A stretch of DNA of 64,000 nucleotides. Origin: Isoetes taiwanensis. Lineage: Eukaryota; Streptophyta; Lycopodiopsida; Isoetales; Isoetaceae. The translations under genes and the position numbers were made by a program. How positions within the stretch are numbered: the first letter of the stretch is position 1; the number at the start of each line of letters is the position of its first letter. The stretch spans positions 11,614,359-11,678,358 of the forward strand of contig JAJEKV010000010.1 of NCBI GenBank assembly GCA_021234155.1. The letters are read 5' to 3'. Shown one piece after another: positions 1 to 62,498 of the stretch. The notes below the pieces were generated by a model, which worked only from the letters and a program-made list of their open reading frames with translations, did no database searches and had not been told where the DNA came from.

Positions 1-1212
1 GGCTTTATGAATTTGGTTAGAAACGACGCGGGGAAGAGGTCGTTAGGCTGAAAGAAAGCTGTTGAGCGAGAACCATCCGACTACGAGAGATTGCATGTTT
101 GATCAAAACAATTTATATTCAATCATTCATGGTGATTACCCACGAACCTTGTCCGGAACGGTTAAGCCCACGAGGACTTTACTTTGGTTATTGCTGATCT
201 TCCCTATGGGTTTAAGCTTAAAGGCGGCGAATCTGACGACCAGCCCTTCAAATTTTCAGAGTTTAATGCTTTTATTGAAGGAATTAAGCGGATCTCAACG
301 GCCAAACATTGGCGTTTAGTTACGTTCCATTCGAGCATGCGATCGGCTTGGTGGAATCGGCTTTCAAAAATCACTTTGGTTCTCGGTTCGGGCGGGATAT
401 GAAAACCTTATGCGGTAAGTCTTATTCGAATACAATTACTTTTCTCTTTAATAGCGTAGTGTGTATTAGGAATAGTATTTCTGTTTACGGTTTTGAAGTG
501 TTTTCTTGTTTTTGCTAATATCACTTTATATGCTTCACTAGGTACAAAGCGAACATCAACTACCATGGTGGAGGACCAAGGTTGCTTTCGACAAGGTAGA
601 GTACCTTCATGTAGCTTATTGGGTTTTGATGGGAAGAGGACCATGGACCACTTTAACAACTGCCTTTGTCAAAACTTTTCAAGCGTCCTAGAGTTTCCAG
701 CGGTCTTACGAGAAAGTGCGGGACCCAAGTGCACAAAGGCGGGGATTGTGAATCACTACCGAAACCAAAAGCTCATCAACCATCTCACGGACATGTTCAC
801 CGGCGTCAGGAGATTGGGTACTGATGCTTTCTCACGTTTACGGTACTACTATCGCATGTGCACTTAAGAAGGGGCGCAAGCTGTGTAGCCGTGGATATTG
901 ATAAGGAGAATTTTGTGCATTTTTGAAGATGAGGCCTGGCTGCCTTACCTACTTTACGGATGAAAATCGGGGAGTTAGGGGCCAAGTCTTCATCGATTAT
1001 GCTAAACTAACGTCCTCGAGAGATCTGACCTCCATTCTCGGCTCACTAGGCGATGAGGCAACCTTTGCGAGCTTAAAAAGTAGCTTTAGCTACCATTCGA
1101 AGAACAAGGAGGATACAAAACTCAAGTCCGATAAAGGAGGCGGATAGAAACGAAGGGCGAGATGATGGAGAGCGACAAAAAGAATGAGGAGGACTATGAT
1201 GTAGATCTTTGA
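1..1212 (+). pseudogene. 3' part of ParB-methyltransferase element gene (copy M1)
   Basis: This is a diverged copy of the last exons of the intact gene at 50940-54522; base 1 corresponds to about 53297. The motif IV region reads ADLPYGFKL near 190-215. A GTAAGT...CTAG intron follows at 415-541 and holds a relic of the element palindrome (TATTCGAATAC). After it come the stretch KLINHLTDMFTG and a degraded motif I (DAFS, then a frameshift). The C-terminus ends in DVDL before a TGA at 1210-1212. Reading frames are broken in several places compared with the copy at 53.4-54.5 kb. The 5' half (ParB-like part and DUF7869 partner) is outside the window or missing. Family assignment rests on the better copy. 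Confidence 0.75.
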
Positions 1213-1520
1213 CTCTCTTTGCATATTAAAATTATCATTATTTATTACAATGAATCTTCAATATTGATGTACAACAATTTATTAAAAACATAGTACTTTT
1301 TTTTCCTTTCTATTCTGGTGCTTGTTTTTTGTAATGCTTTCAGTCTCTTCAAGTCTATGCCTAAATTTTGCTACTTTTATGATTTGTGTTTCCTAAGTAC
1401 AAAGTTTTCGTCTAATAATGGGCCAAAATGGCATGAAAAAAAATGCAAACCTCTAGAAATTCTTAACAACTATCAAAAAGGCTTATTTTAGAAACTTGGT
1501 GTTTTTTAAAGGGAATCTTT

Positions 1521-1569
1521 GAAGCGGGGTGATGCAACACTCCCGTTTAATTTGCAATCGTGTTCACAA
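1521..1569. repeat. Right-end remnant of the TIR element with target-site copy (M1)
   Basis: The stretch ends in the same terminal sequence as the intact element (AATTTGCAATCGTGT, ending 1563), followed by TCACAA at 1564-1569. The subterminal hairpin seen in the intact copy is present but one arm is damaged. The downstream flank is the same as at 54882, so this is the same insertion event carried along by duplication. Confidence 0.75.
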
Positions 1570-1662
1570 CAAAAGCCCTTTTTTCGTGCATGTGGTGCAT
1601 AATGGTCAACAACCAATGGCTCATAACAAAAGCCCTCTTTTTGTGGCCTTGAAGGGCGCATG
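1564..1662. repeat. Minisatellite flank of the element, about 62-bp units
   Basis: Roughly one and a half units containing GGTCAACAACCAATGGCTCA and CAACAAAAGCCC. The same unit is repeated more fully at 46347-46487, on the other side of the intact element. It is the sequence into which the transposon inserted. Confidence 0.65.
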
Positions 1663-5592: not shown

Positions 5593-5635
5593 GTATTTTA
5601 TTTTCCCACACATAGCTAGTCTGGAACTTCCAAAC

Positions 5636-41690: not shown

Positions 41691-42451
41691 AGTCTATTTC
41701 AGTTTTCTTAAGGATAAGTGCTCGCAAACTTGCGGTATTGTGTGCGATCACGGTTTAGAGATTTCTTGGATCACTTGCTTGATTCCGGATCGTTTTCTTG
41801 GCGATTACGAAGAGGCGAGGTGCGAATCGGCGTTACTAACTATGAGGACCACGAAAGCCTTTATTCTACGAGATTAGAGATGGCAAATATTAGAAACCCC
41901 ATTTTTGAGCTCTGGTAGAATATCAGAAATGTCCTCCACTCGGCCGGGAAGAATCTAAATCATCATAATTTGGATGCTCTGCTTTCTGCCTATGGTGCCG
42001 GTGTGGGCGATTTTTGTGCTTAGTACCTTTAAGCTTGGGTGTAAAAGGTACTTGCTTTCCATAAACAATCCACTCACGGATCTTGAGCAAAGGTCGGATC
42101 TTCGAAGCCTAAAAGCGAGGCCCAAAGGCGTGAATCTAATGGGGCATCTTTGGAAGCCCTAAGTGAGGCCCAAGATGTGAATCTGGTGGCTCATCACGGG
42201 AACCAATTGTTAGAACTCCACAAGCTCAAAACAATGGTTCGGTTATGACATTTTTTCCTAGCGGGCATTGCAACCCAGGTAAAAAACCCATTTCTCTAAA
42301 GCATCAAGATGCTCTATACCATCTCCTCTCCTCTATCAAATTTATATACGTGGAAGAGCTGCGGCATCCAGTGCCATTTCTGAGGACTCGTTTTTCAGGT
42401 CTCATCGAGTTTACGAGATTTACGAGATTTTTTGATGCAGGACACACTTAA

Positions 42452-43572
42452 AATGATCGGTCTGGCGGCCGAGTGGGTTCTTCTCCATCGGGGGATGATA
42501 TTTCTGACAAGATTCGGAGTTGCGGGTTTTCTAATTTACCTCTTTATCCTCCTTTGCGTGTGTACGGACTGCATGCTGAAAACTCTTCTGTGTTTGGAAT
42601 TTCTATAGAGTTAGTAAAATTATCAGAGTATGCATGATTGGCTACTAGAATAGTTTGAGCAGAAATCTACCTTTAAGCCCATGCACGGATTCGGATATGC
42701 CTATCTTTGTGGACCACGAGAGCGTTGAACACATTTTGAAGATCAACTTCCAGGAATTATCCTAAGGTATTCATAGTTTACCTCATCATTTTTAGTTTCA
42801 ATTGTGGTCATTTGGGATCTAATTCTAATTGATCTATCAATTAGGGAGAACAATTTCATGAAGTGATGGAGGTTCTTTTAGGTGATGGCATTTTTTAATT
42901 ACGATGGAGAGCTCTAGAGAAGACAAAGGAAAAGCTGCTAGTTTGAATTTGCATCTGAGTTTTGAGAGATTTTAGCACACTTGGTATTAGGAATTATGCT
43001 ATAAAGCTCTCAAGCATTATCATTATCCGTTCAATTGCAAAGAGAAACTACATTTGACATGCGGGTAAGGAGACATTTACCCTAAATCATCTTCAAGTCC
43101 TTATACTAAAAAACTTTGATGCCAATTTCGTGTCTAATGTTAAAATTGACCAAGTCTATGTCAATTTCATCATCTAAGTTTTGTATGAACAATTTACACC
43201 AATCTATTCATCTTATCCTTGATTTGCGGGGACTGTTTATGCATGACCCTAGACTCTATATGCAAGCTTGGATTTGGAGTTGAAATAGGAACTTCTGTCT
43301 CCATCGCTTCGGAGAATCCATTTGCAATTGCATTTGACAATGCAAATGCCATTGTTACCACGGATATTTGTGGACCCTTTACGGAGAATCAAAAGCTATT
43401 TTAACATAAACCGGGAAGCATTACTCCATAAGGTGCAAAAATTGTAGATGAATTCACCTACAAAGTGAGTCGAACAAGAGGCGGTGATTGAAGCAATTAA
43501 AGCCATGTCTACGCATAAAAGTGGAGTCTCGGGAAATAAACTAGGTAGGGGGATATTAAACTTGAAATTATA
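42452..43572 (+). pseudogene. CYP704-family cytochrome P450, N-terminal half (P3)
   Basis: Three exons as in the other copies. Exon 2 keeps the TAG that replaces the Trp codon in DGELWRRQRK, shared with P4. Exon 3 acceptor reads TTTGCGG for TTTGCAG. The C-terminal catalytic half is absent. Confidence 0.75.
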
Positions 43573-44609
43573 TTAGCGAAGGTCATCTAAGGTTGGAGAT
43601 GGAGTAAATGATGCCGGTCTTTGGCAAATCTGATAAGCCATTTTGATTTTCATTCTAACAATATTCTTAGGACTTTGAGCAAATAATCACCTTTTGTAAT
43701 TCCTCTCATCAATAACATTTTTTATAAGCAACTTTAGCATCTATTTGACCTCGGTAGCGGCTTATTATAAGAATCACTTTCGATATCAAAGTTTTAATAT
43801 TCCCAACAAAAATTACCCATGACATGCATTTGCCATCTTGCACTTTGAAATCTAGATGTTTGAAATGCGATATCATGTTAGGGAGGGCGTGTTATGCTTG
43901 TGGTAGATATTAGATATTAGTATGATATCATGTTAGAGGACATGCTAATCAATATGTATTTTGTGACTAAAGAAATCTTTCAATGAGAACTCTAGCATTG
44001 AAATGGCATTTTTCTTAGATAATGTCAATTATTATGCAAACATGTCATTTAAAAGGTCTTCTAAAATACATATGAAACTTCTAATGTGAATTCCACATTT
44101 TGAATCCCATTTTGAGATATACTATAGATTAGGTTGGAATGTTTTTTACCCCAAGTCAAAGGTGACACAAATTCCCTTGCAATGCATTTAGAAAAATGAA
44201 ATGTTGGCGGCCCTCCCTCCACCGGTGCATTCGAAAAAGAAATGTTATGGCCAACCTTAATAGAAATTCTTGTAACTTATAACCTTAACCCCTTGTAATA
44301 AATTTTGGTGGTTATTTATGGCAGTGCAATTTTAAAGTAGTTATTACTTTCAATTTTACACTCCCTTCGAACTTACGGTGCGACTTGAACTTAGAGGCGT
44401 GCTTTTGAACAATCTCTCTACAATCACCGGTGTGAACTTACGGGTGTAAACACAATCTCTCTACAATCTACAAATTACCGGGAGCTTTTAGAGCTTCGGC
44501 GGTGGCTTTTAAATTTCAAAAGCTTTTCGGATTGGCTAAAGCATTTGAGCTTAAACCACGGTAAAGTAATTTTTGAGCCCCGGCTTCCGGCTTTTCGAGT
44601 TTTACGGCT

Positions 44610-44770
44610 CTATGTGGCTTCTACAATCTTACCTTTTTTTCTCTGTGGCTTTTAGAGCTTCTACAATCTTGTTTTTTCTCTGTGGCTTTTCGGCTTCTAC
44701 AATCTTCTGCTTTGGTTTTTCTGCTCAAAGGTTTCTACAAAGCTTTCGGCTCAAAGGTTTCTCGGCTTCT
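44610..44770. repeat. Tandem repeat around GGCTTCTACAATCTT (P3)
   Basis: Third copy of the family at 10063-10300. Confidence 0.7.
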
Positions 44771-45049
44771 TCTCAGCTCAAATCAACTTTTGTTTTCGAC
44801 TTTTGGTTTCGTCTTGAAGGCAAAGGCTCAAATCGAGTCTGAGAAAACAAAAGAGGTTAGTATTTCATGTTCTTTACTTAAAAGTCTGTTATCTTATTCT
44901 TGTTTTATTCTAGTATTTGAGAAGATTACATTTCTATGCTTTATCACATTATATATGAGCTTGAGGGGTTAATCAAAGGGAGTGCTTCTTGGCTTAGACT
45001 TTTAGATGCATGGTCCTATCTTGCCTGACACCTTGATATATAGATCTAT

Positions 45050-45345
45050 TGTTTATAAACATCCTCTATTGCTTATAAACATGTTCTATTGCTTATATGA
45101 TCTTGCTCTATGATTTTGCTCTATCTATTGCTTATAAACATGTTCTATTGCTTGTATGATCTTGCTCTATGATCTTGCTCTATCTGCTCTAAATAATGAA
45201 CCAAAACAATGAACTAAATAATGAACTAAACAAGGAGTATTATTATTATATATCTGCGCTATCTGTTCTTATTCTATCTGCTCTATCTGTTCTATGAGTT
45301 CTTATTCTGCTCTATCTGCTCTTAGATTTGCTCTATCTATTTCCC
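45050..45345. repeat. Short tandem repeats TCTATTGCTTATAAACATG and TATCTGCTC (P3)
   Basis: Best-preserved copy; TATCTGCTC and TATCTGTTC units are intact here and serve as the reference for the corrupted copies at 10.7 and 25.4 kb. Confidence 0.7.
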
Positions 45346-45410
45346 TGGCTTCGTATTCTATTTTTCTGCATTTTTTTTTCTATAGAATGATATGTTAGAA
45401 TGGGCGAAAT

Positions 45411-45580
45411 CGCGCTTGGCGCATTTCTAGTTTGGCTTCTAATTTCCCACTAGGTTAATCAAATCGCGCCAGACGCGTTTCTAGTTTGACCTTTCTATTT
45501 ATACGGCTTTATACAAATCGCGCCAGGCGCGTGTGAAGTAGATCTGTGAAAAAAACAATATAGCAAACGCGCCTGGCGCG
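45411..45580. repeat. Four CGCGCCAGGCGCG-family palindromes upstream of the 124-codon ORF
   Basis: At 45411-45423 (CGCGCTTGGCGCA), 45465-45477 (one mismatch), 45519-45531 (perfect) and 45568-45580 (perfect, CGCGCCTGGCGCG), about 50 bp apart. This is the cleanest cluster in the window. Confidence 0.85.
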
Positions 45581-45669
45581 TTTTGGATTTCCTATATTTA
45601 GAATCATTTTCTGGGGAGAGGAATATCATTTGCTAATTAGTTAATTTCTCTCGTTCTAGTGCATTACAC

Positions 45670-46041
45670 ATGGCTGCTTCTAGTTCAAATATACTTCCTC
45701 TGGACGACCATCAACGCTGGACCCTGTACAAGATACTACTTAATTGTGTTGTTCAAAACATTTAAAGAGAGTTGGACAAGCCATATGACAGTCTGTATCA
45801 GGGGCCATGGAAATGCTACCATCGCATCACTGGACATATGCGGCTCCTCATGCTCTTAGTAAGGCTCATGCCAACAAATAAATACGAGGCTTTGATTAGG
45901 AGTATCAAGGATCGATACAACACTCTGATTTGGAGACTCGACATTCGCAGGGACGAAGAGGATGATGTCATATCAGAATGGTCCAGGTGGGACTTTACTC
46001 GGTATTGGGCCGATGAAGTGGGCCTATGCGACATTTTGTAG
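45670..46041 (+). CDS. Unknown small protein, about 124 codons with one in-frame stop
   Basis: The frame opens with MAASSSNILPLDDHQRWTLY and closes with WADEVGLCDIL before TAG at 46039-46041. One TAA near 45760 (AACATTTAAAGAG) interrupts it; related copies have an extra T or A at this homopolymer, so it may be a sequencing or recent error. The product is mostly helical and charged (IRSIKDRYNTLIWRLDIRRD). No family was recognised. Palindromes flank it on both sides (45411-45580 and 46080-46158), and in P1 and P2 it lies directly upstream of the N block. It may therefore be a first exon or an accessory gene of the lineage-2 element. Confidence 0.5.
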
Positions 46042-46079
46042 AGATGTGTAGAGCAAGCTATGTTAGTTCAGAAAGAACT

Positions 46080-46158
46080 CGCGCTTGGCGCATTTTCACA
46101 AAAGGAAAAATGTACATATATTTCTTTTGAATATAAATACAATCTCGCGCCTGGCGCA
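46080..46158. repeat. Two CGCGCCTGGCGC-family palindromes downstream of the small ORF
   Basis: At 46080-46092 and 46146-46158, each with one or two mismatches to the perfect palindrome. Confidence 0.75.
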
Positions 46159-46346
46159 ATTTTGCAGCTTAAACTTTTAAGTCACGCTTATTTTAATATG
46201 TAGCATAATAACAGGGGGTTTTCTTTGTGTTTTTGTACGCTTTTCACTAAGGTTTTCCTATGATTTCGTGATGTATTCAAATGGATGTACTAATGCGTAC
46301 ATCTAGAGTGCACCATTTCTGAGCCATTGATTTTAGCCTTTTTTTC

Positions 46347-46487
46347 CAATGGTCAACAACCAATGGCTCACAACAAAAGCCCTTTTTTTGTGCGTGTGGT
46401 GCATAATGGTCAACAACCAATGGCTCACAACAAAAGCCCTTTTTTTGTGCATGTGGTGCATAATGGTCAACAACCAATGGCTCACAA
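46347..46487. repeat. Minisatellite, about 62-bp unit, target of the element
   Basis: Two full units and part of a third, containing GGTCAACAACCAATGGCTCA and CAACAAAAGCCCTTTTTTTG, in direct orientation. The array is broken at TCACAA by the left end of the element and resumes after the right end at 54876. Confidence 0.85.
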
Positions 46488-46511
46488 ACAAGATTGCGTA
46501 TTAAACGGGAG
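46488..46511 (+). repeat. Left terminal inverted repeat
   Basis: 24 bp, pairs with 54852-54875 at 21 of 24 positions; mismatches at positions 4, 11 and 12. Confidence 0.85.
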
Positions 46512-46880
46512 CAAATCATTGAAACGAGAGCAAAAGGAATATTCCACAAAGATTCCTTTTTTTTTACGAAAAAGGGGGTAAAATGAGGTTAAAAAAAAAA
46601 AAGATGCATGAAATTCTATTTTGACCCCCCCCCCCGAAATGACTAAATTTTTTTTGCAACGAAGGAATTGACTTTTTTAAAGTGTCACTTTTCTTAGCAA
46701 AAAGAATGTTCTTAAAGTATGTTTTAAAGAGAAACTCTAATTTCAGACTCCCTAAAAAAGAGGATAAAATATTTAACAAAAAAAATTGAAGTAAGTCTCA
46801 GAATTGAAAACGTAGTATTCTCAAAATTTGAAGATAGAATCTTCATATTCACATCAAAATTTACAGTCTTTTTCTAAGAC
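46512..46880. other. Left subterminal region of the element
   Basis: AT-rich with long A and T runs and a C run of about 11 at 46625-46636. No gene; likely 3' untranslated sequence of the DUF7869 gene. Confidence 0.5.
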
Positions 46881-49800
46881 TCAGTTATGTGCAAAAGTGT
46901 GAGGAGTGATGAGAGAGGGATCCAGGACGTCCTCATGTTCATTTATGCCATCGTCATCACCTTCACTTCTTTTTGATCCTTTCGAGGAAGTGCTTGAGTT
47001 ATCTTCCTCATCACTATCACCGCACTTGAAGCAGACGGTGAAGAAGGTATTGTCACCACCTTCTTCATCATCTTCTTCATAATTACAAGTTTTTTTTAAG
47101 CAAATTGATAGTCTTCGCCTGATTGCGTACAAGCGATTGTCGATTTCAATTTAAAATCATAGCACAATATAGTCACGTCATTAAGGTTATTTCGTCCCTA
47201 CAACCCACCTTCTTGGACTTTCTCCCTTTTCCTTGGCTTCTCATTTCTAACTCATATCTACCTTCAAAAGCATTTTCTGAGCGTGTTGCAAGCCAATGAA
47301 TCTTGAGTTTAGTGACTAAGCCTTCCTCCTTGACTGTGTCAAGCACTTTTGCTATCCAGAACGGTCGACCTTTGTCATCCTCCTCAGTCGGAAGAGCAAT
47401 TAGCATACCTTTGGTAATTTTACGTGATATTACCTTGGGGCTCATTCCTGCGTCTTGGTCCGAGGTACATGACTCGGTCCTCCTCGTCTTCTACTTCAGG
47501 TGCAAATGTAGCACTGCTTGGACCTGCTTGGTGCTGGGGTTGATGGAAGGTGTTAGGCCATTGAAATGGTTCTTGCAACTGTCTTAGAGCTATGTTTTGT
47601 ACAACAATTTTCTGTTCGAGAAAGAAATTACTCCACCACATCCGATCTTCTTCTAAGAAGTACTTAAAGCCTGAGGAAATTCCATTTTCAATGGCTTTTA
47701 AGGATGACTCTGGGGTACTTTTCTTCTGCTTGGACTCCTTAGGATTTTTGAGAGGAAGTTGCTCAGCACGTTCTATGAAGGAAGTGTCTGGAATATATTT
47801 AAGGAAGCGTAATCCCTCTGGCGGACTCCAGTCCTTAGTTGTGGTATACTTCTTCCCCTGTAAGAAGCTTTGGCCATCCTTCAAGTAGAACTTGATATGA
47901 TGTTGAAAGGTGAGATCATTCAACTTGTTCTCAGCTTGTTCTCTGTTTGAACGTTGAGAGAAAACAAACTCTCTGAAATCAGCAGTCTCTTTAAGAAGAT
48001 CGACCACTGGAGTAGGAGTGTAAGAATCTTCAATAATTGAACTAAAGAAGGAAGAAAGCCTTCTTCCTTCTAAGGCGCCGTAAAAAATCTTGAACATTTG
48101 GTCAATCTGATCATGAGTGTGGCCTACAAGTAAGAAACCGAGCTTCACTTTTCTAAAGATCCCTAGCTCCACTAACATGGCACAGTACGCAAAGAGTGTT
48201 TGATTCTTGTTCTCCCTTGTAGTATTGTCAAGTTGCAGATAAAGCACTGGTGGTAATTGCTCTTGCTCGCACAGGACCTTGTTAAGAATTGTAATTGTGA
48301 GGTTGGGGTCACCATGCAAGTTTGGATACGTCAAAAAAACTTTGCACCTTAGACTTCCTTTGAAGACCATAGCTCCTACAAGGTGGACCTTAACAAAACA
48401 TTCCTCTGGCACATCTTTAGGAATGTTCAAGAAATGTGGTAGAGTTGTTTTTTTTTTGGTCCATTCCATCAATCACAACAGACATGTATTGCAGTGGACG
48501 TTCAAGAGCTTTTTTTCTATGCTTGGCAAGCTTTCTTCTCTCTGCTGCTTGTTGTTCACGATGTCTGGCAAGGTTTCATTTGCACAATATCTGTAGAAGA
48601 AATCAGGTCAAAGCATTTTCTCTGAAACAAGTGAGAGATTGGAGAACATGAACTTACTTCTTTCGACCTCTGTCTTTGCAGTTTCTCGTTGACTCTTTAA
48701 TTCTGCACACCTCGAGCAAACAGACATTCTATGTTTTCTAGGAATTTTCACAAGACCGAATTCAAGACCACGGTGAAGTGTGAGTAAGAGATGTCTTTGA
48801 AGCTGAGTGCAAGTCTCTTTGTACTCATTAAAACATCTTTTTGGTGATGTTATCAGTTAAAAACGATACATGTTGTTAGGTAGCTTCTCACATGTTTCTC
48901 TAAAATATTTCTCCATCCATGACACAAAGAAGAAGGGCATGCATGGTTACAACTCTTCTTGGTCCACAATGATCATCGATTCTTTGGATTTTTGTCCGAG
49001 TCTTTTGTGTATTCTAGACATTCTTGTGGACCCTAAACGGTGGACAACCATAAAACATTTCCTGCAAACTTCTTGACGGTTAATGTAGTGCAAGAAGGTG
49101 TTATTCTTGGTCCGGTCTTACATGATAAGCTAAGTAGGCATTCAGTGCGCCAATGTCATGGAACTGAAGTTGTCTCTAAGCGCTTCGTAATTTAGCCATG
49201 TTAAGTCTGTTGATGCAACCCAATGAGCAGCATTTAGTTCTCAAAAAGTCTCCTCATTTTGTGTTCATCCATAAGATTTCTTCTTCTTGCAGAGGAGCAA
49301 GCCCTCAAACCAAAATCCACCTTGAATTTCTTTGAAGATTGGCTTGAGAACATGTAATCTCTTTGTTCCTCGTTGGTGTCTTCATCTTCCATGAAACTTC
49401 TACTACTGGGGGTGACTTCCCTCATCGAAAGTGGTGTGCTTGTAGAGGAAAATAGACCACGTGAAGTTGTTCCGAATAGGCGGGGGTACAAGTTGTTAAA
49501 GGGTGGTGATGGCCCATAAGAGGTTGTGGCATCACTGTTCTTGTACCATCTTGAAAAGGAGTTCTTGCAAACATCTCCTTTAGAGCGGACCGAATTCGCA
49601 AATCCATGTGTCACAACCCTTGTTGTGTGAAGAGGAGTGCATAGCCGGAGCTTCGTCCTCATTTGTAGTGAAGTCCCGTGAGAGAAATTGTAGTGAATCT
49701 CACAGTCTTCAGGTTTTCTGTGGTTCCTTGTATGTTTGCAACCAAGGGAGGCTTAAACTACAAAAAGGGGGTAGCTTGTTCTTGAGCACCCTTTGTTGTG

Positions 49801-50110
49801 GAGCTTCTGCAGGTCAGGGGATGGAGCAAAGGGTGGTGGCAGCCCGTCCAACTAGTGGTGATTCTTTGGAAGGAGATGCCGGTGTCGCCTACGTGACTTG
49901 GTGGACGGTTGGAAGGGTGGTGGAAGTCCATTACGTCTTTGGACTTCGGTGTGTCTTCGAGAAGCAAGAACGATGAAGCAGAGGTAGGAGTCCGAGAATT
50001 CCGGTCTTCGGGAGAAAGCGGCGTTGGTCCCAAAGCGTGTCCTCGAGAACGGGACGAGCTTGAGACAACAAAAGGTGGTGGAAGTTTGTTTGACGGCGGT
50101 TTGTCATCTT
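46881..50110 (-). CDS. DUF7869 domain protein, putative transposase of the element
   Basis: The N-terminal part (about 50110-49234) is Ser/Pro-rich and disordered-looking. Next come INRQEVCRKCFMVVHRLG near 49030-49085 and HRMSVCSRCAELKSQRE near 48680-48735 (Cys pairs, zinc-ribbon-like). A 67-bp GTAAGT...CTACAG intron is at 48591-48657. The long core frame 47420-48472 encodes NIPKDVPEECFVKVHLVGAM, QLDNTTRENKNQTLFAY and VGHTHDQIDQMFKIFY, the DUF7869 hallmark. After a one-base shift near 47435, a C-terminal stretch (GRPFWIAKVLDTVKEEG, KIHWLA) resembles the small chromo/BAH-like tail of this family, and an acidic tail follows (46881-47132). D and H/D residues of the hallmark could form an RNase H-like DDE site; that role is inference. 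No full start codon is fixed. Confidence 0.8.
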
Positions 50111-50457
50111 AAGAACTGCAAAATAGTGTAGAGTTTAGATAATGTTTTCATCGCAGAGCTTTTCTTATTCCGAATACAAGCCCGCCTACTAAAAAGTAGA
50201 ACTTCCCGCAACAATTAAGCGAAAGGCAAACTAAAAGCTATTCGAATACACTAGAAGGATAGTAAGGTTAAACGTATTCCACTTCACATAGAAAAAGAGC
50301 AAGACGGAATGGACACCTTTAAAAGGAAATTTTGGCGCCTTGATTTATGTATTCCGTCCTCGAGCTGAAGTCGCCAAAGCGCTTTCTCAATATAATATTG
50401 ACTGTATTCGATACTCATAGAAAACATGGAGAGGTGGTAAGAAAGTACAAGGTACAA
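50111..50457. promoter_or_regulatory. Divergent intergenic region, left part
   Basis: Lies between the 5' ends of the two divergent element genes. Scattered TATTCGAATAC and TATTCC half sites at 50168, 50240, 50273 and 50402. No TATA box assigned with confidence. Confidence 0.4.
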
Positions 50458-50722
50458 TCATTTGTGTGTCCGTTTCATTAGGAATACATTCGCCTTTCGA
50501 AGGGCGAAAGTGTATTCCGAATACGTTAATATTCCCTCGGCGAGAACACACTTTCTTTTTCGAGGGAGGGAAAGTGTATTCCGAATTTTCGTATTCCTAA
50601 TACACTTCGCTTGAGGAAAGAAGGAAAGTGTATTCGAATACACTTCGCCTTGAGGAATATGTAGCCCTAATACACGTTAAGCCTTCCCTCAAAGGCGAAA
50701 AGTGTATTCCGAATACACATTT
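50458..50722. repeat. Array of GTGTATTCCGAATACAC palindromes in the divergent promoter region
   Basis: Best copies: 50510-50524, 50628-50643 (perfect, without central base) and 50702-50718 (perfect 8+1+8). Degraded ones are at 50480, 50574 and 50600. Spacers carry a second inverted sequence (TTCGCCTTTCGAAGGGCGAA at 50489-50508), so the whole array can fold into successive hairpins of about 60-70 bp. Confidence 0.8.
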
Positions 50723-50939
50723 GTGTTTTTTTGTTTTGTAAGTTTGTTTTTCCTTGATTTTTGTAGTGACTTTAGTTGTTTTTTTCGCTTTTAAAACTTG
50801 TTTAGACCTGTTTTTTGTCAAGATTGCAGTGTTGTTTTGGCATTTTTGGTCCTCTTTTTGCCTTGTTTTTTCCTTTTAAAGACATTTTGTATTCGGAATA
50901 GTTTTTTGCCAATCGCTTTCTCTAACAAGATCGTGTTTT

Positions 50940-53900
50940 ACACAATTTATTTGGTAATGCACAAGAAGGCAGAAGAAACAACACAAGAGGACCGTTAAAA
51001 TCCCAACGTAAAACCGCGACCCACGAGAGAAGGGTTGAGGAGACACATGCTACCGCCATCTACTTAAAAACTTTCAAACTCAATGGTTTTTACAAGGGGT
51101 ACTTCGAAAGTACAAAGACACTTACTTTCCTACATGTCCGCAATGGTCTTTGGAGCAAAAGGTACGATGAGAGGGAATTTGTTTGCATGGGCACCATCCA
51201 GTCCGGAGTGAAGTAGCCGGGGAGTCCGCCGGTGAGGGAGATTGTCTTTTCAGACATCCCAAGGCTTTATTCATGTTGATGAATCCTATTTTAGAGTGGT
51301 GAAAGTAAATCCTCGCCCTCTTTACAAGTATGTTGCTCACTACATCAAGAAGAGGTCGCCGCCATCATCAACTATGTTCGCTAATAACGAGTTTAAGACT
51401 TCCCTACAAATGAGTCCGGGAGCCCGAGGAAGAGGATGAGCAAGGAAGCCCGGAAGTTCCTCATCACAATGCAGGAGTCCATCCGCGAGTTCCGGCGAAA
51501 GGCCACCGTCACCACCACCAAAGAAGCGGCCAAGGGACACAATTGCTGCTAAAGAGCCTAAAAAAAAGCAGACGGCCTTAATTGCTGCAGAGGATATTTC
51601 CGAGGAACCTAAGAAGAAGAAGGGGAAGGGTAAAGCACCGGTGTTGCTATAAAAGAAAAAAAAGTTGACAAGACAGCTGAAAAGATGGAAGAGATTAACC
51701 TGCACAAGTTTGTGCAAGGTGTAATTTATTTATGATCACTTCAATGAAGCTTCCACCAAAAATGAAGCTGGTGAAAGGCCACTTCAGGTTCGAAAATTTA
51801 TGCCGATCACTTAAGGAACCTGAAAAGACAGAATAAGGAGCAATCCAAATGCTCACGCGGGCCAATTGTTGTCCTTGTTGGAGGGAAGAGTGCAAAACCC
51901 CCGGGACTATGATAGAGAAAACGCTGGTAGAGACCTACACTCACTACGCCTTGGGAGGCAATCACGCCTTTAAGGCAAGAAGGCAACTTTATAAAGAGAA
52001 GAAGAACCCGAGGTACCTCTCCGTCCCCGCGCTATTTCATCGTGGTCTTCACCGATGAAGAAGCGAAAATCGCTACTTAACACCCACAATGCCGACGACA
52101 ACGAATATAAACTAAAGATGAGCTTAGGTCGACAAGATCCGGTTCATGCATGTGGAGTACGTAATATTCAAGGAAAAGTATGGGTGAGGACTCAAGAAGC
52201 CAACATTTTTTTTGGAGCTTAAGGAGGCTTGTGCTATTGAATGTTGCTTAAAAATATGACGAGGCCAACAAAAGGCGCTCTCATTGGCTGTCATGACAAT
52301 TGGTTCCGATTAGCTTTTAGAGATGGCAAGGTAAGCACAAAATGTATTCGAATAGCAAATCAACTATTTAACGTGAATCTTCTTGAACAGATTTGGGAAC
52401 TCCGTGACCAGATATTTACAATGTTTGGCGAGGGAGTTAAAGAGCAAGGGAAAGGAGACAAACTAAGAAAAAAAATGACGCACGTACCCAAAAAGAAATG
52501 ACCATTACCGCCCTGAGGGAGGAAATGCGGAGCTTCTCACACATTGGAGCTTCTCGGCGACTTCTCCAAAAGTTGTTGATAAGGAGTTTAGCCTAGAAGA
52601 AATGTCAAAGGAATTACACAAGTAAGTTCTCGACACAAACATTAGTTATTGCATGTTAGATTCCCAAAAACATCGGCATTGGCTAGTGTATTCGAAACAC
52701 ATGCCTTTCTTTACGAGGGCAATGTGTATTCCGAATACACATTGCTTGTCTCTAGAAAGGCATTGTGTATTCCTCGAATACACTACATTGCCTTTTGGTG
52801 AAGGAAGGCATGTGTATTCGGAATACACATTGCTCTTCCGAATGTTGGAAGTGTATTCCGAATACACATCGCGTTCCTTTAGAGAAGCAATGTGTTTGTC
52901 CCCAGAGAACTATTTTCGCATATTGTTTCGAGGTAGCATCAAAAGTTAACCGGTTTGTATTCCGAATACAATTAGCTTGACTTGTAAAGATTTTTTTCTT
53001 TTACGTTGCCTTCATTCTTTTCGTTTAAACTCATTGTTTCCTTAACGTGTGCAGCCAAAAACGTCATAACATGTCAAACATGTTTGATGGAGCAACTAAA
53101 CGTCGACACATGGGAAAGGTGCAAGGAACTCTACCCAATTGCCACATCCGACGAGCGCATTGTCCAATATTCACCAAATTTTGAGGGATGGGTAATTACA
53201 CTTAGAATTCCTTCTCTCATAGACAAACGATCTCTTCGCAGGTTGTTGTTTTGTTTTTCTTAGAGCAAAAAGAAAAATAAAGACCTACCAAGAGGGCTTT
53301 ATGAATTTGGTTAGAACAAAGACGGAAGAGAGGTCGTTAGTTGAAAGAAGAACCTTGAGCCGTAACCATCCGATTATGAAAATTACGCATGTTTGATCAA
53401 AACAATTTATATTCAATCATTCATGGTGATTGCACGAATTTGTTGGAACGGTTAAGCCACGGGACTTTACTTTGGTTATTGCTGATCTTCCCTATGGGTT
53501 TAAGCTTAAAGGCCGGCACCGCTCTGACGACCAACCCTTCAAATTTTCAGAGTTTAATGCTTTTATTGAAGGATCAAACAAGATCTCAATGGCCAAACAT
53601 TGGCGTTTAGTTACGTTCCATTCGAGCATGCAATCCGCTTGGTGGAATCCAGCTTTCAAAATCACTTTGGTTCTCCGATTCAGCGGGGATATGAAAAATT
53701 TTGTTTGGTAAGTCTTATTCCTCGAATACAATTACTTTTCTCTTTAATTTTGTTTTAGTGTGTATTCCGTAATAGTATTTCCTTGACTTGTTTTGAAGTG
53801 TTTTCTTGTTTTTGCTAATATCACTTTATATGCTTCACTAGGTACAAAACAAACATCAACTACCATGGTGGAGGACCAAGGTTGCTCAAAGAAGGTAGAG

Positions 53901-54522
53901 TACCTTCATGTAGCTTATTGGAGTTTTGATGGGAAGAGGACCATGGACCACTTTAACACCGGCAAAGATGCCAAATTTTTTTTCAAACGCCCTAGAGTTT
54001 CCAGCAGTCTTACAAAAATTGCAGGACCCAAGTGCACAAGGCAGGATTAGAATCACTACCGTAAAACCACAAAGCTCATCAACCATCTCCCGGACATGTT
54101 TTGGCGCCCGTGAGATTGGGTACTTGATGCTTTCGGCGGTTCCGGGTACTACTATCGCATGTGCACTTAAGAAGGGCCGCAATTGTGTAGCCGTGGATAT
54201 TGATAAGGAGGCCGCGGCATTTTGTGAAGATGAGACCGGCTGCCTTACCTACTTTACTGTGATGAAAATCGAGGAGTTAGGGGCCAAGTCTTCATCCGAT
54301 TATGCTAAACTAACGCCCTCGGAGATACATGCCTCCATTCTCCGCTCACTAGACGATGAGGCAACCTTTGTAGAGCTTAAAGAAGTAGCTTTAGCTACCA
54401 TTCCAGAAGAACAAGGAGGATACAAAACTCAAGTCCCAAGAAAAGGAGCAGATAGAAATCGTATGACGAGATGGCAGAGAGCAAAGAAAAAGAATGAGGA
54501 GGACTATGATGTAGATCTTTGA
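50940..54522 (+). CDS. ParB/sulfiredoxin-like plus beta-class amino-methyltransferase, element gene
   Basis: 5' exons: YLKTFKLNGFYKGYFES near 51059-51110 and YDEREFVCMGTIQSGVK near 51163-51213, then a Lys-rich linker. The ParB-like part has GPIVVLVGGKSAK near 51861-51900 and HYALGGNHAFKARRQLYKE near 51934-51990. Three introns with GT/AG borders follow: 52331-52390, 52622-53054 and 53708-53841. Methyltransferase motif IV is TLVIADLPYGFKL (ADLPYGF at 53481-53501). Motif I is LDAFGGSG plus TTIACALKKGRNC, split by one base at about 54145, followed by VAVDID. IV before I is the beta-class order of N4-cytosine/N6-adenine DNA methyltransferases. Stop TGA at 54520-54522. Frameshifts at about 51230, 53900 and 54145 may be errors. 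The start codon is not fixed. Likely role: modification of element or host DNA (inference). Confidence 0.75.
52686..52976. repeat. Array of GTGTATTCCGAATACAC palindromes inside the 433-bp intron
   Basis: Perfect 17-mers at 52724-52740, 52812-52828 (centre G) and 52851-52867; the first is the core of a 27-bp perfect palindrome (52719-52745). Partial copies at 52687, 52768 and 52958. Spacing is about 40-45 bp or multiples. All are within the intron 52622-53054. Confidence 0.85.
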
Positions 54523-54832
54523 CTCTTGATATTAAAATTATCATTATTTATTACAATGAATCTTCAATATTGATGTACAACAATTTATTGAAAAAACATA
54601 GTACTTTTTTTTTCCTTTCTATTCCGGTGCTTTGTTTTTGTAATGCTTTCAGTCTCTTCAAGTCTATGCCTAAATTTTGCTACTTTTATGATTTGTGTTT
54701 CCTAAGTACAAAGTTTTCGTCTAATAATGGGCCAAAATGGCATGAAAAAAAATGCAAACCTCTAGAAATTCTTAACAACTATCAAAAAAGGCTTATTTTA
54801 GAAACTTCGTGTTTTTTTAAAGGGAATCTTTG

Positions 54833-54860
54833 AAACGGGAGTGATGCAACACTCCCGTTT
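54833..54860. repeat. Right-end hairpin, 11-bp perfect stem
   Basis: AAACGGGAGTG (54833-54843), loop ATGCAA, CACTCCCGTTT (54850-54860). The outer arm is also part of the terminal inverted repeat, so the right end carries a second inverted copy of its own tip. No equivalent hairpin is seen at the left end. Confidence 0.8.
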
Positions 54861-54875
54861 AATTTGCAATCGTGT
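54852..54875 (-). repeat. Right terminal inverted repeat
   Basis: Pairs with 46488-46511; followed by TCACAA at 54876-54881. Confidence 0.85.
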
Positions 54876-54881
54876 TCACAA

Positions 54882-55855
54882 CAAAAGCCCTTTTTTCGTG
54901 CATGTGGTGCATAATGGTCAACAACCAATGGCTCATAACAAAAGCCCTCTTTTTGTGGCCTTGAAGGGCGCATGTAGTGCAGTTTCCCCGCCGGCAACAC
55001 ATTTCTTATCATAACTTTTGATCCAGAGCTCTGTTTGAGATGATTTTTATTGCGTTGGAAAGCTCTCTCCGAGATCTTTTTGATGGTGTATGATATGGAT
55101 ATGTTTGGTTAAGTTATATATGCTAAAACAGCAATTTCTCATATGGTTTGGTAGGTTTTCACATCCTACCGGTTTTTAGACTTGATTGCGCTTATTGGAT
55201 ATCCTTTTTATGGCTCATTGCGAATGAAGCTTGCAAAAATTACCATGCATTTTTAGATTTTGCTTATTATTAAGCAAATTCCACGGCTTCTAGATCCTTG
55301 TGCTAACAATGCAAAAGTTTCCACTTTGGTTTCTCACCACAAGAATCCATGGAGGGCAAAGGCCAATAAGGGGCTCAAAAGTTTTTCTAGTTTTTTTCTG
55401 GGTTTGAATTCTAAAATTTTGTCACATGGGAGACGTCCTAAGGCTTGAGGTATGTTCCCAAATTTTTTTTTTGCAACACAAACCATTAACATCCAACATA
55501 TAAAAATTAAACCCCCAACACTTTTGAACAACCATTGACATTAACAACCAACACATAACTACCATTGACATTAATTAACACAACCATTGGGTCCAACACA
55601 TTTAAATTAAAATCCCCTTAAACCCCCTTTGGTTTGGATGCATATTCCATCGGAAAATTGTGAACATTCTAATACGGCGAGAGCCCTCATAATTGTATTT
55701 TCTAATGCACAAAATCAACACCATATAGTATTCCGCTTGAAATCTTATAGTATTTTGCAAATCTTGTTATACAAAGATAGCAAATTTTGTACTTGCATAC
55801 CCCACAAGCGAGGAACTTTACGCAATGGTGTAGATTAAGGAATAAGGGTGTCGAA
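54882..55855. other. 3' flank of the element (M5), no gene
   Basis: Minisatellite remainder to about 54960, then AT-rich sequence and the AACACATAAC-type short tandem repeats at about 55478-55600, as in M1 and M2. Confidence 0.6.
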
Positions 55856-57799
55856 AACATTGAATCCCTTTGATGCCCTCCACCAATTATGACCAACCCC
55901 AAGAAACTACACATTCTCATTAACCCTTCCTTCATAGTTTCATGGGGTTGATAAGATACACCTAAAGAACATCAAAGAATTCAAAATTCACAACATCATA
56001 GGAGATGTTATGATATATTCTTTTTTTTACTATCCTTATTATACATACCTTTTGATAATTTAAGACCTATAAAATTATAGCATCTTTGTATAAAGGTGCG
56101 TACATACCTTTTAGGCGTTCTTTTGGCCACGCCACAAATGTGCCCACGCTCTCCCGATTGTGTTGCCACGGGATGTCTTCTTGGAAGATTTTTCATGCTT
56201 TCATAGTTGCAATTTATAATGCTCACTTTACGTATTTAGCTTTTTCAAGAGGGACGCCATGGCACTTAGATTCGTGGTCCGGGTCTTGATTTTATATAAT
56301 CCAAAGTCGACGCTTCAAGCATACCGTTAATAGATAGCATTCTTCTCCAGCATGACCATAATTGAAAATATTAAAAGAATGATTTCACATGAGCAGGTCT
56401 AGAAAGAATATAATATGTTTCAAGAACGGTCTTCAAATCCTACTCACCATAGTTCGCCGACATGATAGCTAATAGTCGACTCGACATCCTTGAGGAGGCG
56501 ATCGCTAAGTCGAGGCTACGGGCTGATCACCGAGGAGGCGTCAAGTTGATCAGGCAAGGAGGTGCCCAACCAGGAAGATTTCAATAAGTCGATCGCGGTT
56601 TCTTGAAAAAATTAGGTGGCGAAATGAATACGCTCCACAAATAATGCCACATAGGCGTTTCTTGAAAATAATAAAAATAAATATTCGTGGATGTGATTTT
56701 AATAAGAAAATTAAGTTTTTAATTGAAATGAGCATTTGGATAAGCGGTTAATATAGGTTCAGATAAATTGTAATTTAAAATCGGATAAATGTTCAATTGT
56801 TCGGATAATGCACCCTCAAACATAAATTTGAAGTTGCGTCCCATAACATTGCATTCGAACATTGCAGCGATATGGTGTCCGGAGGATTGGCGCAATGAGA
56901 GGTAGAGGCGAGGGAGAGGCGAGGGGAGAGTCACGACGGGCCAACACTCGAGGAAGTTCCTGAACAGTCGAGAAAAGACTGTGAAGGTGTATTTACTATT
57001 TCTTCTCGATTTCTAAAAATTTTTACGTGTTATTTTTAAGTTTTGTCAAAAAATTGTCTTTTTATCATTTTTCTTTTTCCTTTTGTTATTTCTATTTTTT
57101 ATATTGTTTCGTGTCATTTCTATCGCTTTTACTACCTTGTTTTGTATGTTTTTGTTCTAATCTTCTTCTCTACTCTGTGTTTTTGTTTTTGTTTTATAAT
57201 CTTTCTCCTCGTATTCTCGGTTAAGTATATTGTAGACCCATTTTAATTAGAGTTTCTTGCACTTGTTTGTTTAATAGGAATTTTCGTATTCTCCAGTTCT
57301 TTTCGAAAGTCTTTTTCTAGCCTAGTATGTCTTTTGTAATATAGAGCGCCTGTAGGGCTCTCTTGCATACTTGATTTACTTCGAAAGCACGGCCTCTGTA
57401 GGGCTTGTTGGGATCAAACATCAAGGAGGTAATGGAACATGGACTCGGTTATGCCCCATGTCAGACATTAACCTCAATTTGTACTTGTGATTATGTATAT
57501 AATCTTATGAAATATGTCAAAGCATCCTTATTGCTACTAAGGTTTTTTTTTGTGATGCAAACATGGGGTTTTTAATCCCGGTAGTAATATCGCTTTGCTC
57601 TCTCTCTTTGTACTTGGGTCCCATTTAATTTTGGGTCTCCGTGGACGATAAAATCATATTCTATTCTATTCTATTCTAAAAACATGCGATTTATAATATA
57701 TGACGTCATGAACCCCCGATTGTTTTGGTCATCTCTTGCTACTTTTCTTGTATACCATGCTTGTTTTCCGTAGTAAGGCTTCTATCAAAAGCTTAAGAG
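55856..57799. other. N5 block upstream region, no recognised gene
   Basis: Fifth N upstream copy, with the poly-pyrimidine tract at about 57040-57210 and the ATTCT-tailed insertion. Confidence 0.5.
57364..57677. mobile_element. About 314-bp insertion with ATTCT tail (N5 copy)
   Basis: Same insertion and position as at 3986-4287 and 18650-18952. Confidence 0.5.
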
Positions 57800-58957
57800 T
57801 GATTTCATTACTCACCATATGATTGTAACTTTCGGGATCCTCTAAAAATGTGAAAAGAAAAGCAAAGTTCACAGGTCAAGGGACATCGGCATCGAAAAAC
57901 CAAGAACGGAGGAAAATGTATCTTGTTGCAGATTTGGCACGTTGTAGACCATGGACGATACGACCGAATAATAAAGGCTCGGGTAGAGCCTCCGTGTCCG
58001 TAAGAAGATTTACCGTGAGGGCTCGAATGGTATGTGGAGATCTTCAAGACTAGCTTATAAAGACAGATGTTATGTTCATGTCTAGATTTAAGGAAACAGA
58101 TCAAATGAAGAAACAAGGTATTTCGATCACATGTGAAGAATGGGCGATTCATCCGTTTAGAAATTTGAAGCGGTCGAAAAATAAAAAGTATTGAAGAAGT
58201 TAAATTATCCAAAGGTTCCTTTAAAGAGACAAAACCCTAAGAACGGATGAGGCCGCAGATAACCTCTTCAAATTTGGCTGGTGTGGTGAACCATTGACAA
58301 AAAAATATATGTGAAGGTCTCACCGTGAGAAGAGCAATCAAGACAAGTTTTGATTTAAGAACTAGTGTGTACCTACAAGCTTTAAAAGAGAAGGAAGATG
58401 CAAGTTCTAGAGGCAGGAAACACCCGGACGTTCTAATGACATGATATGACTAGTGATGACGATAAGGCGAGCAGGCGTTAGAGGCCATGAGCAAACTCAA
58501 GAAGTATGGACAAGTATCCACTTGGGCCTTAACTTCATGCATCCAAGTCCATGTCGACGGGCTTTTCAAATCCACGTAAAGGCTATGTTTGTCGCCAGAA
58601 GATATCGACAAGCAAAGACGCAATGGAAATAGTCAACAAAGATGATAGAAAAGAGGTTCAGGGTGCCAATGCCCGCAGATGTGGTGCCTTTTGATATGAA
58701 GACGAAAAAAGGTGTTGATATGGAATAAACTTGAAGATTTAATTGGCAACCGGATATTCACTTCATGATAATAGATGGCCAACATTCAAGACTTTAAAAG
58801 AAGGTTTTGATCATCAAGCACAAAAACTGGAAATCGGTTATTCTATAGACTATACCAAAGCAAAATTGCGGTTCCTCAGTGGCTCAACAACAGCAGCAGA
58901 ATTAGCCGAAATCAGCGCGCTACTGAATGACATGGGAAAGACATTCCTATACAAAAG
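57800..58957 (+). pseudogene. ParB/sulfiredoxin-like coding segment, lineage 2 (copy N5)
   Basis: FMIIDGQH core at 58758-58784 and exon border at 58957 (AAAAG/GTATTT). Followed by degraded CGCGCC-type palindromes at about 59040-59115 and a P block, as in N1 and N3. Many indels. Confidence 0.45.
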
Positions 58958-59209
58958 GTATTTTATTTTCCCACACATAGCTAGTCTGGAACTTCCAAAC
59001 TATGGCCGCCGCGATTTCTTTTTAATGTGCATGTCCTATAATTTGTTCCAAATCGCACCATAGCGTAGCGTTTCCATCCTTACAGTGAAACGCTTAAGAA
59101 GATTCAGCGATTTCTTCATGTGGCATATGTGACCTAAAATGCATAAAAACATATAGTAAGTTAGCATATCCAAATAACATTTCCCTAGCATATCCAAATA
59201 ACATCTCCC

Positions 59210-59578
59210 TAGCATGAGTTAACCTATAATATATTAACCTATAATAACCTTAAATGTTGTAACCTTAGAAACAACTTTTAAGGTTATTATAGGTTAGCAA
59301 TTTTTAGGTTAGAAGTTAATTATAGGTTATTATAGGTTAGAAGTTTTAAGGTAGGTTATTATAGGTTAAAAGTTAAGGTTAGAAGAAGTAAGTTTACAAC
59401 TTTTAAGGTTAGAAGTTATAAGGTTAAAATTTCTAACCTTAAATAAATATAACCTTAAAACTTCTAAAACTTAAAACTTCTAAATTCTAATTCAAACCCT
59501 TAAACTTAAAACCTTAACTATTAACTTATAACCTTAAAATATTACCTTAAAATTTCTTATCCTAACATATATAAAGCA
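59210..59578. repeat. AT-rich AACCTTA/TAAGGTT degenerate repeat (P4)
   Basis: Fourth copy of the tract at 5830-6200. Confidence 0.8.
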
Positions 59579-60377
59579 GTGTGATTTTTTGTTTGAAAAA
59601 ATAGGTTCCTAATATTTCCGTCGCTGAGAAGGGCTCTCCAGTGGACACGTTAGTTTTTGGCCATTTCTGTTTTTTTTTTCTCCCCTTATTTTCTTTGTCC
59701 TACACGTGGTGGTAGGGAACTAGTTGCTGCATCCCTGTTCCACCATAGCCAGAAGCTCCAAGCATTGGGGCTAGGAAATTTCAAGGGCCAAATCCATGCA
59801 TGTCTGCCGCTCTGGGCGGTGCCGCCAGGGCCGTTTCTTTGCTGGAGCAAAGTCTAGGTACTCCAGTGGCAACTTCTGCTTTGAATGTGGGTTTTATATA
59901 TATTTGCTTCTGGAAGCTCAGATCATTGCCGATGTCCCAGGCGCCTATTCTGATGCATAACAGAATCTTTTAGCTTTTGAGGCCAAGGGGAAACTATTTG
60001 TCTTTGTGCTGCTAAATCTCGTTTCAGATTGTAGAATTTATCTGGATAGCAACAGAGCTTAGCCCAAAACAGCTATGTTTCAGCATTGATCAGACTGCAG
60101 ATCGCATCGTAGAAGAACCCAAATTTAAAATTGAGAGTGTACGAAAGGGAAACACTCGAAAGGGAAACAGAGTTGTTGGGCACAAACATGGCCGCACCCT
60201 TAATCTTCAATCTCTAGAAGCTTTTGGTAGTTCAAGAGGTAGTCTAAGGCAGGGAGCCTGCGGAGCGGCAGTCTTAGAAGCGGCAGTGTATGAAACTGGG
60301 TTGCATCAAACAATGTGTTCGCAAAATCTTCTCCGTTAGCAAGGTCCATCAGCAGAAGATGATGAAGAAGCCTAAAT
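59579..60377. other. P4 spacer, weakly coding-looking, not recognised
   Basis: Same as 6201-6987. Open stretches include KIESVRKGN and, in another frame, GHKHGRTLNLQSLEAFGSS near 60178-60235; no family recognised. Confidence 0.3.
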
Positions 60378-60600
60378 GACCCCATTGCAGAGTTATTCTC
60401 GGAGCTAACAAAGAGAGAAAAGGCTGCTGGTATTGTTCCTGAAGCTGATGTTGACCTTTATATGAAGGTATTTCCATTTGTCAATAACTTTTCTGCTATT
60501 CAAGGTTATATTTTGTATGTGCATAACATGTTTTTCCTTCACAGGCCCAGGTCGTCACAGATTATATATTGAAGAGTCTTTTATGCAAGAAAGTCTATTT
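60378..60600 (+). pseudogene. PDR-type ABCG transporter fragment (P4, best copy)
   Basis: Exon 60378-60467 encodes DPIAELFSELTKREKAAGIV then PEADVDLYMK. The intron is 60468-60544. The next exon encodes AQVVTDYILKSLLC from 60545. Same reasoning as for P1; only this short inter-motif stretch of the first nucleotide-binding domain is present. Confidence 0.8.
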
Positions 60601-61352
60601 CAGTTTTCTTAAGGATAAGTGCTCTGCAAACTTCACGGTATTGTGCCGATCCTGGTTTCCGAGATTTCTTGGATCACCGCCAGTTTCGGATCGTTTCTTA
60701 GGCGATTACGAAAGGGCAGGGTGCAGATCCGACGTTACTAACTATGAGGACCCTGAAAGCCTTTGTTACGAGATTAGAGATGGCAAATATTAGAAAACCC
60801 CTGTTTTGAGCTCTGGCCGAATATCAGAAATGTCCTCCCTGCTCGGCCAGAAGAATCTAAATCATCATAATTTGGATGCTCTGCTCTGCCTATGGTGCCA
60901 GCTGTGGGCGATTTTGTGCTTAGTACCTTTAAGCTTGGGTGTAAAAGGTACTTGCTCTGCAAGCAATCCCTGCTCTGGATCTTGAGCAAGGTCAGATGTC
61001 GAAGCCTAAGCGAGGCCCAAGCTGTGAATCTAATGGGGCATGCTGGAAGCCCTAAGTGAGGCCCAAGATGTGAATCTGGTGGCTCATGCAGGAACCCAGA
61101 TTGTTAGAACTCCACAAGCTCAAAACAATGGTTCGGTTATGACATTTTTCCTAACGGGCATTGCAACCAGGTAAAAAACCCATTTCTCTAAAGCATCAAG
61201 ATGCTCTATACCATCTCCTCTCCTCTATCAAATTTATGTCTGTGGAAGAGCCGCTGCAGCATCCCAGTGCCATTTCTGAGGACTCTGTTTTTCAGTCTCA
61301 TCAGAGTTTCTGAGATTTCTGAGATTTTTTTGGTCTGAGACCTGCACTTAAA

Positions 61353-62484: not shown

Positions 62485-62498
62485 ACTGAAGGTCATCT

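Follow-up and report, generated by a model that had tools for sequence, protein, structure and literature searches.

The locus

The window (the whole stretch analysed, 64,000 nucleotides of the Isoetes taiwanensis genome, C908:11614359-11678358) contains a complete DNA transposon of 8390 bp (Table 1). The element carries two divergent genes on opposite strands: a presumed transposase gene with a DUF7869 domain, and a gene encoding a ParB-like segment followed by a DNA methyltransferase. Arrays of a palindrome lie in the divergent promoter and in one intron of the second gene.

Table 1. Positions of the element, its genes and its palindrome sites in the window
Feature a	Positions	Strand b	Basis or remark
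Complete DNA transposon copy, 8390 bp	46487..54876	no strand	Ends agree in 20 aligned copies (19 others)
Left terminal inverted repeat, AACAAGATTGCGTATTAAACGGGAG	46487..46511	+	
Right terminal inverted repeat (reverse complement AACACGATTGCAAATTAAACGGGAG)	54852..54876	-	
Target site duplication, CACA	46483..46486 (left copy), 54877-54880 (right copy)	+	
Presumed transposase gene, open stretch, DUF7869 (PF25273)	47423..48472	-	Pfam E 1.4e-43
Promoter palindrome array	50458..50722	no strand	17-mer matches and copy alignment
Promoter array sites c	50510-50526, 50574-50590, 50589-50605, 50628-50643, 50702-50718		
ParB-like/methyltransferase gene	50940..54522	+	GT..AG intron borders; start uncertain, frame broken in the window copy
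Introns of this gene (four)	52331-52390, 52622-53054, 53192-53263, 53708-53841	+	GT..AG borders
ParB-like segment d	51690..52330	+	Weak profile match
Intron 2, relic single site	52331..52390	+	Below the 3-mismatch threshold
Intron 3, second array	52622..53054 (array 52686-52971) e	+	Motif scan, copy alignment
Methyltransferase part	53264..54522	+	DLPYG at ~53483-53497, motif I at ~54120-54170; intron 53708-53841 with relic sites
Duplicated copy of the same insertion, 3′ part (M1 gene)	1..1582	+	Relic sites 415-541
a Positions are those of the window. b no strand, feature without orientation. c The list is not exhaustive. d Better copies read ...GGNHSFKARRQLYKEK...LTDEEAKIVANTHN... e The array was given as 52686-52976 in the first-pass annotation.

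The ends of the element were defined on the 20 aligned copies; 36 of 2007 candidates were scored in the genome search for element copies, with 104 matches. The right end falls on the same base in all 20 copies, within 20 different flanks, and the left ends were located in all 20. An exact 4-bp target duplication is found for the window copy and 18 of the 19 others; the remaining copy differs at one of the four bases. A duplication of 6 bp, the first guess, was replaced by 4 bp according to copy ends and flanks. A 4-bp target site duplication is given for Sola2 in the available part of its description (PMC3627910), and this feature of Sola-type DNA transposons is thus also that of the window element (19 of 20 copies). 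With this duplication and its ParB-methyltransferase accessory gene, the element appears to be a Sola-like DNA transposon whose gene match is to DUF7869. Homologues of the DUF7869 protein number 229, and Riccia (a liverwort), Adiantum (a fern) and animals are among the 120 listed. The name DUF7869 was not met in the limited literature searched.

In the methyltransferase part, copy L020 matches Pfam N6_N4_Mtase (PF01555; E 1.1e-17), and the closest solved structures are CcrM, MboIIA and RsrI. The motif IV-like DLPYG (exon 4) precedes motif I, DAFSGSGTT (exon 5). A DPPY-like motif IV placed before motif I (FSGSGTT) is taken here as the mark of a beta-class N6/N4 DNA methyltransferase. The joined methyltransferase protein gave no match as a query and one match, at 25% identity, as an alignment. 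On the pieces tested, in which some exons are not intact, only DUF7869, N6_N4_Mtase and Cons_hypoth95 (methyltransferase-like) exceed the Pfam cut-offs.

The ParB-like segment is matched by NCBIfam TIGR03764 in copy L010 at E 1.6e-4 and 1e-4, below cut-off (22.1 bits against 143.75). Pfam ParB does not match this segment, nor does TIGR03764 match that of the second family described below. Two fold models of the segment have mean pLDDT values of 37.6 and 42.0 and are unusable. The following exon (52391-52621; SLEEMSKELHK in better copies) looks helix-turn-helix-like by eye, with no supporting family match.

The region around the element is repetitive. Segments 1-10556, 15773-25705, 40248-46201 and 53295-64000 form a tandem or segmental duplication (86-90% identity) of a region with a cytochrome P450 exon (61988-62482; PF00067, E 1e-6); in the 1-10556 copy, the duplication took in the element insertion as well. 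The element is inserted into a 57-bp tandem repeat (AATGGTCAACAACCAATGGCTCACAACAAAAGCCC...; 46348-46487), also present at locus L048. At two other loci, element left ends lie ~60 bp (L002, ~1717-1774) and ~270 bp (L034, ~643-916) from outside palindrome sites, perhaps through self-targeted nested insertion.

The palindrome and its distribution

The recurrent unit in the 20 aligned copies is GTGTATTCCGGAATACAC, a perfect 18-bp palindrome. In the genome scanned (1,658,258,908 bases in 1110 contigs), this 18-mer occurs exactly at 2585 sites (reversed control: 0), and intact half-sites 0-8 bases apart form 5847 pairs (reversed control: 7). The first-pass annotation had recognised palindrome arrays but took a 17-mer as their unit. 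The palindrome stands; the 17-mer, counted genome-wide as that annotation had proposed, has 599 matches over both strands (control: 0) and is a shortened form of the 18-mer. The copy alignment, the genome counts and the CpG dependence of the short forms together rule it out as the motif.

With up to 3 mismatches, the 17-mer has 15 matches over both strands of the window, corresponding to 9 distinct places, against a mean of 0.09 and a maximum of 1 in 100 window shuffles; the arrays are therefore real and well beyond chance, at the coordinates first annotated. Exact copies are found at 50702-50718, 52724-52740, 52812-52828 (minus strand) and 52851-52867, and near copies at 50510, 50574, 50589, 52686 and 52955.

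The 20 aligned copies contain 276 sites (at most 3 mismatches in the half-sites, assigned by site start): 144 in the promoter region (49601-50940), 123 in the intron 52622-53054 and 9 in the intron 53708-53841. None of the 276 lies in an exon, as had been claimed from the window alone. Single or relic sites had also been annotated in introns: those of 53708-53841 are borne out by the 9 sites, and that of 52331-52390 is a relic below the threshold. The site annotated in an intron of M1 (415-541) is likewise present as a relic; it is not independent evidence, since it lies inside a duplicate of the same insertion (1-10556 matches 53295-64000).

Spacing and length were counted on 272 sites from 77 non-overlapping loci of this family (family 1). 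Neighbouring full-length sites are 41 or 42 bp apart, about four helical turns, in 73 of the 79 gaps shorter than 70 bp; among all gaps shorter than 200 bp, 90 of 186 are of 41-42 bp. A fixed 42-bp period holds for family 1 and fails in family 2, and was rejected as a general rule.

Short forms and probable assembly errors

Two bases separate the half-sites in 163 of the 272 sites (CG 112, CA 26, TG 16, others 9), fewer than two in 106, all but one of which keep the CpG, and more than two in 3. Both short forms, the 17-mer and the 16-mer GTGTATTCGAATACAC, occur almost exclusively at sites with a central CpG. Shortening depends on this CpG: short forms account for 105 of the 217 CG-centred sites and for 1 of the 52 others (Fisher p = 6e-12; the 3 longer forms omitted; sister copies with identical surroundings are included, so that the sites are not all independent). 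A flexible half-site spacing is ruled out by the sites without central CpG, which remain 18 bp.

Across the 20 copies, changes of all three kinds (substitution, deletion, insertion) are most frequent at CpG and fade over a few bases, and TG or CA, the products of deamination, account for less than half of the altered CpGs. This pattern is read as methylation-linked nanopore miscalling. According to the available part of its description, the assembly (1658.30 Mb; 204 scaffolds and 909 contigs) was sequenced on nanopore flow cells of type 9.4.1 (PMC8566536). Assembly errors of this kind at methylated CpG are the probable origin of the 16- and 17-bp forms. Miscalls linked to CpG may also explain much of the frame breakage in element copies. 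Broken frames are an unsafe proof of dead copies, because the positions at which copies differ are concentrated within ~3 bp of CpG, with indels and non-deamination changes among them. The same kind of error may make gene models look broken in methylated parts of this assembly (indels and substitutions cluster at CpG in L009-L028).

Central TG and CA forms point to host methylation of many arrays, in which case many copies are probably silenced. The contest of element and host thus seems two-sided.

Association with the element and conservation

All 37 site clusters sampled lie inside relatives of the element when the arrays themselves are masked. The sample comprises 22 of the ~62 listed 17-mer clusters and 15 clusters from the 18-mer and half-site listings; it was taken from the first places listed and is therefore non-random and skewed to low-numbered contigs. 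Two clusters (C21:26 kb and C37) doubled as references, and both also match the window copy. A motif common in the genome independently of the element would have spoken against the first-pass annotation; the motif is common, yet tied to the element in 37 of 37 clusters.

The 18-mer persists between deep lineages. Between copies L069 and L020, one methyltransferase exon has a dS of ~1.8 and the other is past saturation; dN/dS, ~0.06 in the first of these, indicates strong purifying selection on the methyltransferase between these lineages. L069 has spacers unlike those of the window family, and the 18-mer recurs unchanged in its two arrays, which occupy corresponding positions. For the recent pair L020 and L011, dN/dS is 0.62, a value that decaying or miscalled copies would be expected to give; the signal of selection comes from deep lineages and not from recent copies. 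The DUF7869 part of L069 is much nearer to the window copy (dS 0.16), so modules seem to have been exchanged. In L069 and L071, the DUF7869, promoter-array and methyltransferase modules have diverged unequally, which suggests exchange between subfamilies.

Gutted copies keep the arrays. L087 (3778 bp) and L089 have lost almost all of the element coding sequence and retain the ends and the arrays toward both ends (the right terminus of L089 is outside the stretch examined). L088 (3187 bp), also non-autonomous, keeps the left array alone. The left 546-833 bp of these three copies are 81-89% alike and most of their interiors differ; their left arrays share ancestry and represent few events, probably one. 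The interiors may hold captured sequence, like those of Pack-type elements.

A related family with a different palindrome

Of 9902 first-look DUF7869 candidates in the genome, 150 were scored. At one locus (C16), upstream of a DUF7869 candidate, no family-1 site with fewer than 5 half-site mismatches was found. An array of CGGTATAAATTTATACCG lies there between a plus-strand frame leading toward DUF7869 and a minus-strand ParB segment. CGGTATAAATTTATACCG is a different 18-bp palindrome with 4415 sites genome-wide (control: 0). This family 2 was read in three short loci from two places; its ParB segment at C16 is 51% identical to that of the window element.

The two palindromes do not mix at 2 mismatches or fewer: the 77 family-1 loci contain 224 family-1 and no family-2 sites, and the three family-2 loci contain 25 family-2 and no family-1 sites. 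Their placement is similar. Family-2 sites are found in the divergent promoter in L090; in another copy, L091, they lie in the intron that follows the ParB exon. Paired clusters of CGGTATAAATTTATACCG ~1.7-2.1 kb apart occur in 4 of ~15 listed groups (C4, C18, C19, C21). One cluster of C21 directly follows the ParB exon and lies, by homology, in the counterpart of intron 2, which carries a relic site in the window element; the second, read over 651 bp, shows no clear match to coding sequence and, judging from its position, would correspond to the promoter.

GTAT-N6-ATAC is common to both palindromes. The core is TCCGGA and the outer bases are GT and AC in family 1; the core is AAATTT and the outer bases are CG on both sides in family 2. 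Such a difference is the pattern expected if a motif and its reader co-evolve, although two families are too few to establish a code.

Possible function of the arrays

The arrays are a real, conserved and family-specific set of candidate self-recognition sites. Recognition by a protein of the element, as first proposed, is well supported indirectly: the sampled sites are confined to the family, are kept through saturated divergence and in gutted copies, and are replaced by a different palindrome in a family with a diverged ParB segment. The ParB-methyltransferase is a plausible reader. The analogy with parS drawn at the same time is loose, given the weak ParB profile match (E 1e-4, none in family 2).

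The arrays are, on balance, probably cis-acting self-recognition sites through which this Sola-like transposon marks or shields its own DNA, with the ParB-methyltransferase as likely reader. An element protein, most likely this fusion, would bind each 18-bp dyad as a dimer. It would occupy the site clusters of the divergent promoter and of the gene's intron, where neighbouring sites are spaced by about four helical turns. The DNA of the element would then be marked, probably by N6-methyladenine, and/or shielded from host cytosine methylation. A promoter and an intron so marked or shielded would escape host silencing. The element and its non-autonomous copies would thereby keep their capacity for expression and movement, and other parts of the genome would be ignored.

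A broader version is put forward more tentatively, with less than even confidence. The transposons would form a clan with a private address code, in which each ParB-methyltransferase paralogue reads its own GTAT-N6-ATAC palindrome, located in the divergent promoter and an intron of the ParB gene, and adds an adenine mark to members of its family only. If true, this would be a bacterial-derived and convergent counterpart of VANC anti-silencing. In the available part of a source on 6mA (PMC12695648), no information on land plants was found.

Binding by the DUF7869 transposase, or by a second transposition protein, is the strongest of the other explanations and is considered unlikely. The palindromes would then serve complex assembly and control of the divergent promoter, like the subterminal motifs of CACTA/Spm. 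The promoter array does adjoin the transposase gene, and gutted copies keep their end-ward arrays together with the terminal repeats; in the full-length window copy, however, ~4 kb separate the arrays from the left end and ~2 kb from the right, so that they are not subterminal, and in both families the second array lies in an intron of the methyltransferase gene.

Recruitment of a host transcription factor or chromatin protein, with a host operator borrowed as promoter or enhancer, is improbable. All 37 sampled clusters are in the element, so that no host site was seen, and two families have different palindromes in similar places; these observations outweigh the suitability of promoter and intron arrays for an enhancer and of an 18-bp dyad for a dimeric factor.

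It is very doubtful that the arrays act through the structure of the nucleic acid, as cruciform DNA or as hairpins in the introns and 5′ leader, rather than as protein sites. The spacers are often inverted repeats too, so that chains of palindromes are formed; but a structure predicts that pairing is kept and not letters, whereas the exact 18 letters are kept and the paired spacers vary freely. Symmetric double changes in the outer three bases number 12, against a shuffle mean of 5.7 and a maximum of 14, which is not clearly above chance, and all 12 are one form, TTG.

A functionless minisatellite spread by slippage and gene conversion inside the element, suggested by the variable site number and the recently expanded look of the arrays, is hardly credible given that the exact 18-mer outlasts saturated divergence in two separate arrays whose spacers differ, is retained in gutted copies and is absent from exons.

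Comparison with known systems

In bacteria, parS is read by the helix-turn-helix domain of ParB. Bacterial ParB-parS and the window element have in common a ParB or ParB-like segment and palindromic sites of similar length; they differ in that the window protein is fused to a methyltransferase and has a weak profile match, and that its arrays are internal to a transposon. In CACTA/Spm elements, TnpA binds subterminal motif arrays that are kept in non-autonomous copies. Such retention is also seen here; unlike those of CACTA/Spm, the arrays of the window element are internal in full-length copies and partly intronic.

The VANDAL elements of Arabidopsis are MuDR-type transposons, and their VANC proteins are not known to contain a methyltransferase. 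The window element instead encodes DUF7869 and a ParB/methyltransferase gene, and neither a MuDR-type transposase nor VANC was found on the pieces tested. According to the available parts of the sources, VANC proteins bind motifs in VANDAL introns and upstream regions and cause methylation loss (PMC5735166, PMC10398659). The likeness to the present case lies in family-specific arrays of short motifs in introns and upstream non-coding regions (PMC5735166, PMC10398659), quickly rearranged, with different motifs in related families and a tie to an element-encoded protein. The VANDAL motif YAGTATTAY has the letters GTATT in common with the window palindrome. VANDAL motifs are, from the same sources, short and in a single orientation, whereas those of the window element are perfect 18-bp palindromes. 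Binding is proven there for VANC21 and methylation loss for VANC proteins; the reader of the window element is a candidate proposed from sequence.

A close counterpart in gene content is Sola1-1_Ec32 of Ectocarpus, for which the available part of the report describes a gene with ParB-like and DNA methyltransferase domains opposite the transposase, with similar cases in green and red algae, and suggests that proteins of this kind bind the transposon encoding them and modify it (PMC12477816). Both domains and the strand opposite the transposase are shared with the window element, which fits this Sola1 accessory-gene layout (methyltransferase E 1.1e-17; ParB weak, E 1e-4; opposite strands). Sola1-1_Ec32 is algal and no target motif is mentioned for it in that part of the report, whereas the window element is from a land plant (a lycophyte) and has candidate target sites. 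The protein class and the idea of self-binding are thus already in print (PMC12477816). No report of target palindromes, or of the element in lycophytes, was found in the limited literature searched; to judge from that literature, those described here may be the first targets put forward for the ParB-methyltransferases of transposons. The algal genes were reported with a mere suggestion of a target; here, candidate sites are concrete and countable in a plant genome, and the second family with its different site opens the self-marking idea to a direct test in vitro. Its confirmation would mean that sequence-specific self-recognition by transposons arose at least twice, with unrelated proteins.
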